From: Desulfurellaceae bacterium
Lineage (GTDB): Bacteria > Desulfobacterota > Binatia > Bin18
DNA length: 54,508 nt
Direction of reading: 5' to 3'
Assembly (NCBI GenBank): GCA_021296095.1
Contig: JAGWBB010000012.1
Span: 1-54,508 of the forward strand
Program-made: the position numbers and the translations under genes
Notes under the pieces: model-generated
Databases searched by the model: none
What the model saw: the letters and a program-made list of their open reading frames with translations, nothing else
Told to the model about the DNA's origin: nothing
Shown here: positions 36,208-38,350 of the stretch, piece after piece
How positions within the stretch are numbered: position 1 is the first letter of the stretch
How the letters are laid out: each line of letters begins with the position of its first letter

Positions 36208-36876
36208 ATGAGTGACCAGAGCGGACTTAACCAGGAACTCAAACAGGCTATTGAGGCATTTCAGCAAGAAATGCTACCCAAAATCCCGGCCGAAATTCGG
36301 ACTACACTCCAGCGCACCACCGAGGATCTGGTCAAAACCGGCATTGCCGACCGCGCCCTGACAGTTGGTGATACGGCTCCCGATTTCAGCCTGCCCAACG
36401 TCGGTGGCGAACAGGTCAGGTTGTCCAGCCTGCTGAGCGAGGGACCGGTCGTCCTGGCCTTCTACCGGGGCAACTGGTGACCCTACTGCAACCTGCAGTT
36501 GCAGGCCTACAAAAAACACCTCGCCGCCATGCAGGCCCATGGCGCCGCCGTCCTGGCCATCTCTCCCCAGACGCCGGACAACTCGTTGACCATGGCCGAA
36601 AAAAACGAGCTGCCGTTTGAGGTCTTGAGCGATGTCGGCAACCGGGTCGCGCGCCAGTTCGGACTGGTTTTTGCCCTGGTCGACGAGCTGCGCCCGCTGT
36701 ACGATCAGATTGGGGCCAAGCTGTCGGATTTCAACGGCGACAGCTCCTACGAACTGCCCATTCCGGCCACCTATGTCATCGGCCAGGACGGGGTCATTCG
36801 GCTGGCCTATGTGGATGCCGATTACACCCACCGGCTTGAGCCGGTAGACATCATCGATAGCCTGGCCGCCCTGTAG
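36208..36876 (+). CDS. Selenocysteine AhpC/TSA-family peroxiredoxin-like protein (TGA = Sec91)
   Basis: Read through the TGA at 36478-36480, this gives a 222-residue protein. The motif R-G-N-W-U-P-Y-C stands where the family has R-G-x-W-C-P-Y-C, so the first redox cysteine is Sec91 and the second remains Cys94. Sequence on both sides of the TGA fits the family in one frame, including I-S-P-Q-T-P-D-N-S-L and the D-A-D-Y-T-H-R-L-E-P ending. AGGAGG lies upstream and the gene ends with TAG. A 7-bp hairpin starts 5 nt after the TGA. It is divergent from the PQQ dehydrogenase and probably reduces peroxides or disulfides. Confidence 0.9.
36486..36504 (+). promoter_or_regulatory. SECIS-like hairpin of the AhpC/TSA selenoprotein
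   Basis: CTGCAAC pairs perfectly with GTTGCAG around a CTGCA loop. The loop starts 12 nt after the TGA, a little closer than the usual 16 nt minimum, and its G is third. It is a plausible but not ideal bacterial SECIS. Confidence 0.5.
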
Positions 36877-37393: not shown

Positions 37394-38350
37394 TCAGTGA
37401 CTGCCCTCCGGCATTCGAGGGCGAGCCTGTGGACTTCCATACACAGCCGTCTCCCGATGGAAGCTCACCCAGGCAAACCAATAGGCGACGACGGACGGCA
37501 GCAGCTCGCCCGACTCGGCATCGACGACCTGAGCGCTGTTGGCGATCGGGTCGTACACGGCCGTAATCTTTTTGTGTCCAAGCTGGTCCTGTATCGGAAC
37601 CGCCCGCTTGTGCAACACCGCCAAGGAGTAGGCTTCGTGCCGCCCGGCTATTGTTACGCCCAATACTTTGTCTTTCGGCCCGAGCCGAAAGTCCGCGTGC
37701 CGGACCGGGAACATCAAACGTGGGCTACTCGCATACTGGCGATAGGGCAGGCGGCCGTAGTCGCGCCGAAAGCCGGTGTGGGTCGATAAGACCAGGATTT
37801 CAGGATATTGTTCCCGCCACGCCTGCCACGTCGTGGTCAGCGATGCGATGGGAATAAGCGGGGTTCCGGTCAGCTCTCCGGTAACTGCCGCAGCCTGGAG
37901 CTGCGACCACAAACTCTCGGTCTGGTGGTCGTACAGCAAGACGTTGCTCTCGTACAGTTTGCCCGACACACCAAAAGAAACGGGCCGGTCCTTGACGGTG
38001 CGGTCGTACACGACGCCGCTGGCGGTCAGCGGTCAATAGGTGACGGCGATGGGTCTGTCGCCAAGCGTATCGTTGACCACCTCGTGCCAGCTCAGAATGC
38101 GCACAGGGTAAGCCTTGGCCACGCCACCCTCGACCACACCGATCAGTTCATCCCCAGCCCCCAGCCAGCTGGCCTCGGCGGCCGGGACAAAGCGGGGAGC
38201 CAGCAGGGCCGGAATATCGTCCTTGTCTAAGCCAGTGTCAACAATGTGGTCCACGTCAATGCTGTGCCGGCTCAGCTCAAAACCGCCCAGCCACGGGCTG
38301 AGCACAACCAGGCTGATCAGCCACAGTCCACGTGTCTTGCTTCTCATCAC
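37394..38350 (-). CDS. DUF3179 selenoprotein (TGA = Sec106)
   Basis: Read through the TGA at 38035-38033, this is a single 318-residue DUF3179 protein. An N-terminal signal/anchor, R-F-V-P-A-A-E-A-S-W-L, A-Y-P-V-R-I-L-S-W-H-E-V-V-N-D, then T-Y-U-P-L-T, V-S-F-G-V-S-G, T-E-S-L-W-S-Q and the Y-A-S-S-P-R-L-M-F-P-V segment follow in family order. The family motif is T-Y-C-P-L-C; here the first Cys is Sec106 and the second Thr109, giving U-x-x-T. Downstream hairpins fit a SECIS. The gene begins 6 nt after the GNAT ceramide synthase candidate. The function of DUF3179 is unknown; the motif suggests thiol/selenol redox chemistry outside the cytoplasm. Confidence 0.87.
38000..38032 (-). promoter_or_regulatory. 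SECIS-like structures of the DUF3179 selenoprotein
   Basis: Directly after the TGA, CCGCTG pairs with CAGCGG (loop ACCGC). An overlapping alternative, GCGGCGTCG-TGTA-CGACCGC, forms a bulged stem with its loop about 22 nt after the TGA and a G second in the loop. The second fits the bacterial SECIS rule better. The two cannot coexist. Confidence 0.5.

Follow-up and report, generated by a model that had tools for sequence, protein, structure and literature searches.

The DUF3179 gene on the minus strand of the analysed DNA (the window, a whole stretch of 54,508 nucleotides from a Desulfurellaceae bacterium) very probably encodes a full-length selenoprotein, judging from its sequence and from that of its homologues. 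Selenocysteine (Sec) is almost certainly inserted at the single internal TGA. The explanation as a whole, an exported DUF3179 protein into which Sec is inserted by means of a hairpin, is considered highly likely; redox chemistry with one selenol is its likeliest, inferred action. Standard annotation rules would call this gene truncated or a pseudogene.

37394..38350, minus strand: DUF3179 gene, putative selenoprotein of 318 residues with the TGA read as Sec; stop codon TGA at 37396-37394
38033..38035, minus strand: in-frame TGA, codon 106 (Sec106), in the place of the Cys that is invariant in the family; Thr109 stands at the second Cys position

Reading frame, homologues and Sec machinery

Apart from the TGA at 38035-38033, the frame is open throughout, and the peptide around this codon reads VTY-U-PLTASGVVYDR. 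The gene can start at GTG 38350 or ATG 38347; the latter seems more likely, and its Met (M2) matches a Met in 52 of the 56 alignment rows. The profile PF11376 matches residues 43-301 with an E-value of 4.8e-85, on both sides of the TGA, and is covered completely (1-292 of 292), with a score of 286 bits for a curated cut-off of 27. A separate six-frame search of the genome returned the same place, with "1 TGA". The TGA column contains C (or TGA) in 56/56 aligned homologues; the second Cys of the CPLC motif is replaced by Thr, and no Cys is present besides the Sec106 position. An earlier note on this DNA had described a frame broken only at the first motif Cys, a Thr instead of the second (U-x-x-T) and family sequence continuing in frame on both sides, all of which is borne out by the frame, the translation, the alignment and the profile match.

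An open frame alone is no proof of Sec, as long frames separated by a TGA are common by chance in this GC-rich DNA: counting those with some 90 codons or more to either side of the TGA, the whole window has 31, the DUF3179 gene included. Hence, the case rests on the homology on both sides and on the exact Cys position. The roughly 30 other arrangements, and the weakness of the hairpin in isolation (see below), would fit a true stop codon, the gene being either a pseudogene in decay or split into two. However, the 212 codons past the TGA retain the family sequence and all the invariant residues, the TGA is found at the same codon in dozens of genomes, always at the motif Cys, and the genome has the Sec machinery. 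A pseudogene or split gene is contradicted by the comparative data and is very improbable.

At the Cys/Sec site, the codon is TGA in 24, TGC in 37 and TGT in 21 of the 82 aligned sites (80 loci), and no other codon occurs. Many more TGA forms appear in a survey of the phylum, where at least 24 of the 45 genomes with a match carry it (draw of 395 genomes), and all full-length homologues in the window's order have TGA. The search for TGA/TGC alternation and for a conserved hairpin across genomes, proposed in the earlier note, thus found both. The nearest homologue, L021, is 58% identical at the protein level, comes from a separate assembly and likewise carries TGA at this codon; L101, from the window's order, is apparently the same species ("Candidatus Binatia bacterium isolate SKYG48"). 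A TGC or TGT misread as TGA by sequencing or assembly is very unlikely because the TGA recurs in independent assemblies (L021 and 23 other loci), and the unusual conservation of synonymous sites in the codons after it also speaks against a misreading; on these comparative grounds, the error was rejected, with a probability that is practically negligible.

The gene selA is present in 20/24 TGA genomes versus 6/26 Cys genomes (Fisher p 2e-5, inexact since the genomes are related). All four TGA genomes in which selA was not found are MAGs of unstated completeness; of the six Cys genomes with selA, two carry the CPLT forms L054 and L065. The assembly to which the window belongs (4.3 Mb, 97% complete) was searched for selA, selB and tRNA-Sec, the lack of which would have counted against Sec in the earlier note. 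It carries a tRNA-Sec with anticodon UCA (72 bits), an adjoining selA (578.7 bits), selB (383.3 bits) and selD (385.4 bits). The selD gene (L017, C46:5964-6899) adjoins selB and has an in-frame TGA of its own.

A further candidate, a probable second selenoprotein of the window with a 7-bp hairpin from 5 nt after its TGA, is separated from the DUF3179 gene by some 500 bases:

36208-36876, plus strand: peroxiredoxin-like (AhpC/TSA) frame, selenoprotein candidate; TGA at 36478-36480 in FYRGNW-U-PYC

Several loci show other particularities. L114 and L077, which look like one species in two records, share an in-frame TAG that lies 44 codons beyond the TGA, where LWSQ has its invariant Gln; it may be a nonsense change, an assembly error or another recoding. 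L119 contains another in-frame TGA, which lies 71 codons beyond its Sec codon. Five short DUF3179-like selenoproteins (L135, L136, L137, L138 and L147), apparently exported, have just the first of the two repeats, with the motif [AG]YUPLVDLAAVYSR, and in 5/5 the stop codon lies exactly 86 codons past the TGA. In the divergent DUF3179-like proteins L139 and L140, the motifs that include the in-frame TGA are UPSC and UAEC.

The hairpin downstream of the TGA

In most TGA forms, a 7-bp stem with a 5-nt loop is found about 20 nt downstream, within the 39 nt after the TGA. The corresponding elements in the window are:

37994..38032, minus strand: predicted SECIS region, 39 nt after the TGA (covariance model match, 19 bits, with a rough E-value of 0.062)
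38000..38019, minus strand: proposed SECIS hairpin GCGGCGU-CGUGU-ACG(A)CCGC, 7 bp with one bulged A
38016..38032, minus strand: competing hairpin CCGCUG-ACCGC-CAGCGG, directly after the TGA, which wins in the isolated fold

The proposed SECIS hairpin has its 5-nt loop at 38012-38008, with a G at the second loop position, and a folding energy of -7.6 kcal/mol for its segment and -9.1 kcal/mol for 23 nt. Hairpins following the TGA, as mentioned in the earlier note, are real, but the 63 nt after the TGA, folded alone and compared with shuffles, show no extra stability (z 0.44). Since this isolated fold gives no support by itself, the TGA and Cys homologues were compared instead, and the evidence for the hairpin is comparative.

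The mean local folding energy is -10.6 kcal/mol over 52 TGA rows (about 45 of them independent, as some loci from different collections belong to the same species, e.g., L021/L101 and L047/L113) versus -4.1 kcal/mol over 56 Cys rows. When the same peptide is recoded with synonymous codons for comparison, the TGA rows have a mean z of -2.46 and the Cys rows one of -0.39; for the window's hairpin, such recoding gives p 0.07. Among 29 sequences, the window left out, 95.6% of the stem cells are paired, whereas sliding the partners leaves at most 57.6% paired. One stem pair is present as A-U, G-U, C-G, U-A and U-G, both sides changing across two codons.

When a covariance model for this 39-nt region was trained on these 29 sequences, all from other genomes, its single match in the whole window fell at 38032-37994, immediately behind the TGA; the E-value of this match (0.062) is modest. 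The model found none of the 46 loci outside the training set (Cys forms and TGA forms, including L021) at E <= 0.1, and as left-out TGA forms such as L021 are missed, it lacks sensitivity and is specific for the main clade. An Rfam scan of the window gave no match. A G at position 24 is present in 50/52 TGA rows, yet it is found in all Cys rows as well; hence, it is not evidence and may be a coding effect.

The codons themselves provide a separate sign of constraint at the RNA level. In the first 12 after the TGA, 11/11 codons for the same residue are identical between the window and L021, versus 64/163 elsewhere (p 6e-5); this stretch lies in a 45-nt identical run. Hairpin-aided insertion of Sec at the window's UGA is strongly supported by the comparison of homologous sequences: Sec would be placed there by SelA, SelB, SelD and tRNA-Sec, helped by the short hairpin about 20 nt downstream.

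Predicted fold, evolution and proposed chemistry

The structure is predicted with a pLDDT of 93.3 and a pTM of 0.89: an N-terminal hydrophobic helix is followed mostly by strands, and according to this model the protein is probably exported.

38285..38347, minus strand: N-terminal hydrophobic helix, probable signal peptide or anchor (predicted helix residues 7-22)
37991..38167, minus strand: internal repeat, N-terminal copy (residues 62-120), which carries Sec106 (hhalign, structure prediction)
37511..37687, minus strand: internal repeat, C-terminal copy (residues 222-280), without Cys or Sec (hhalign, structure prediction)

The two copies align with an E-value of 1.7e-12 (hhalign, residues 62-120 versus 222-280), and in the predicted structure both halves have the same strand-strand-helix-strand-strand-strand order. 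A sequence search of the PDB returned no solved relative, and a Foldseek search of the PDB with the model found nothing at E <= 0.001. PF11376 is the sole profile match, and no thioredoxin-like fold or family (GPx, Prx, Dsb) was found. Against viral models (BFVD), Foldseek matched two uncharacterised giant-virus proteins at E <= 0.001, Indivirus ILV1 (E 1.2e-10) and, more weakly, Hokovirus HKV1 (E 5.3e-4). In the alignment of 56, the invariant residues of the family include His89, Glu90, N93, W148 and Q150.

In a quick tree of 96 DUF3179 proteins, one group of 40, not firm at a support of 84, unites the Sec forms with four CPLT forms, and the CPLC forms are outside it. The window protein pairs with L021 (support 99), and the CPLT forms are sister to this pair (82). 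The second motif position is Thr, Ser or Ala in the main Sec clade; among the relatives, the states beyond Cys and Thr are Ser, Ala and Val. Three divergent Sec forms keep the second Cys, as UTLC (L102, L103) or UPLC (L115), their placement being unsure because of long branches. The simplest reading would be that Sec was gained once, the second Cys being lost, and that a later return from Sec to Cys left the Thr in place. The CPLT forms nested among the Sec forms (L054, L065, L120 and L126) are apparent Sec-to-Cys reversions, and they offer a test of whether a DUF3179 protein with one Cys works without a resolving Cys.

The best reading of DUF3179, inferred from these features, is an enzyme of the envelope that works with one selenol. 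The selenol of Sec106 would be oxidised in the envelope by its substrate, a peroxide or a disulfide-type electrophile, and reduced again by an outside thiol or protein partner; in the CPLC relatives, the second Cys would be the resolving residue. This redox reading follows from the lack of any other Cys in the protein and from the Thr, Ser or Ala at the second position in the main Sec clade. Redox catalysis by one selenol is given an even chance.

A serious rival, if a rather unlikely one, is the binding of a soft metal or metalloid (e.g., mercury, copper or heme iron) by Sec106, which would make DUF3179 an envelope metal handler. This fits the predicted export, the CPLC motif that is invariant in the relatives, the invariant His89 and Glu90 close by in sequence, and the failure to find a thioredoxin-type fold; moreover, a table in an Idiomarina electron-transfer study places a DUF3179 gene among mostly cytochrome and redox proteins. 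However, the main Sec clade lacks the second Cys, where both ligands of a metal site would normally be retained, and no metal-handling genes recur nearby. In fact, no recurring neighbour genes of any kind were found for the Sec forms, and the window's neighbours are in no other locus.

Returning to the redox reading, its fuller version is put forward tentatively: DUF3179 may be a redox enzyme with a fold unseen in solved structures, built by internal duplication, in which the switch to Sec did away with the need for the resolving Cys once in a large clade, and some lineages then went back to Cys while keeping the Thr, giving a one-Cys enzyme. The Sec form marks residue 106 as reactive and suggests that the chemistry gains from selenium. 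As the family has no known function and no solved structure was found, this form is a handle on DUF3179.

Comparison with known systems

Glutathione peroxidases have a Sec-Gln-Trp-Asn set, which the invariant W148, Q150 and N93 of DUF3179 may recall by analogy. DUF3179, on the contrary, has no GPx or thioredoxin family match and no significant fold match in the PDB. The UxxT motif of the window protein is shared with glutathione peroxidase-like selenoproteins, listed with this motif in PMC9312934, and one-selenol chemistry is presumed.

The Cys-form CPLC proteins of Nitrospirota, Nitrospinota and Gammaproteobacteria are at most 49% identical to the window protein and have the same invariant residues. 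They differ by their TGC or TGT codon, by the second Cys, which is kept, and by the absence of a hairpin after the codon; most are without selA.

The earlier note did not know DUF3179 as a described selenoprotein family. In fact, the reviews PMC9312934 and PMC13188914 already list the family as such, with "UxxC/T", and both refer to Zhang & Gladyshev 2007, a study of the Olavius algarvensis symbiont. That DUF3179 includes selenoproteins is therefore already known, and the redox chemistry suggested in the note, a reasonable inference, is not a new one. The window protein belongs to the same Pfam family (PF11376) with the same UxxT motif, and the UTLC and UPLC forms keeping the second Cys agree with "UxxC/T" as given in the reviews. 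L073, likewise UPLT, was found in the MAG of a delta symbiont associated with Olavius algarvensis, the host animal in the 2007 study. The window protein, in contrast, comes from a different, Binatota-related lineage, and its predicted SECIS differs from that of the main Sec clade by a bulged stem and another letter sequence.

Beyond what the accessible text of the two listings contains, the present analysis provides the hairpin comparison between Sec and Cys forms, the Ser, Ala and Val at the second position, the apparent reversions and the internal duplication. It adds a DUF3179 selenoprotein, as read from sequence, in a Binatota-related lineage, with a predicted SECIS; probably one Sec clade without the second Cys, including the apparent Sec-to-Cys reversions; and a confidently predicted exported fold with an internal duplication, for which no solved relative was found.
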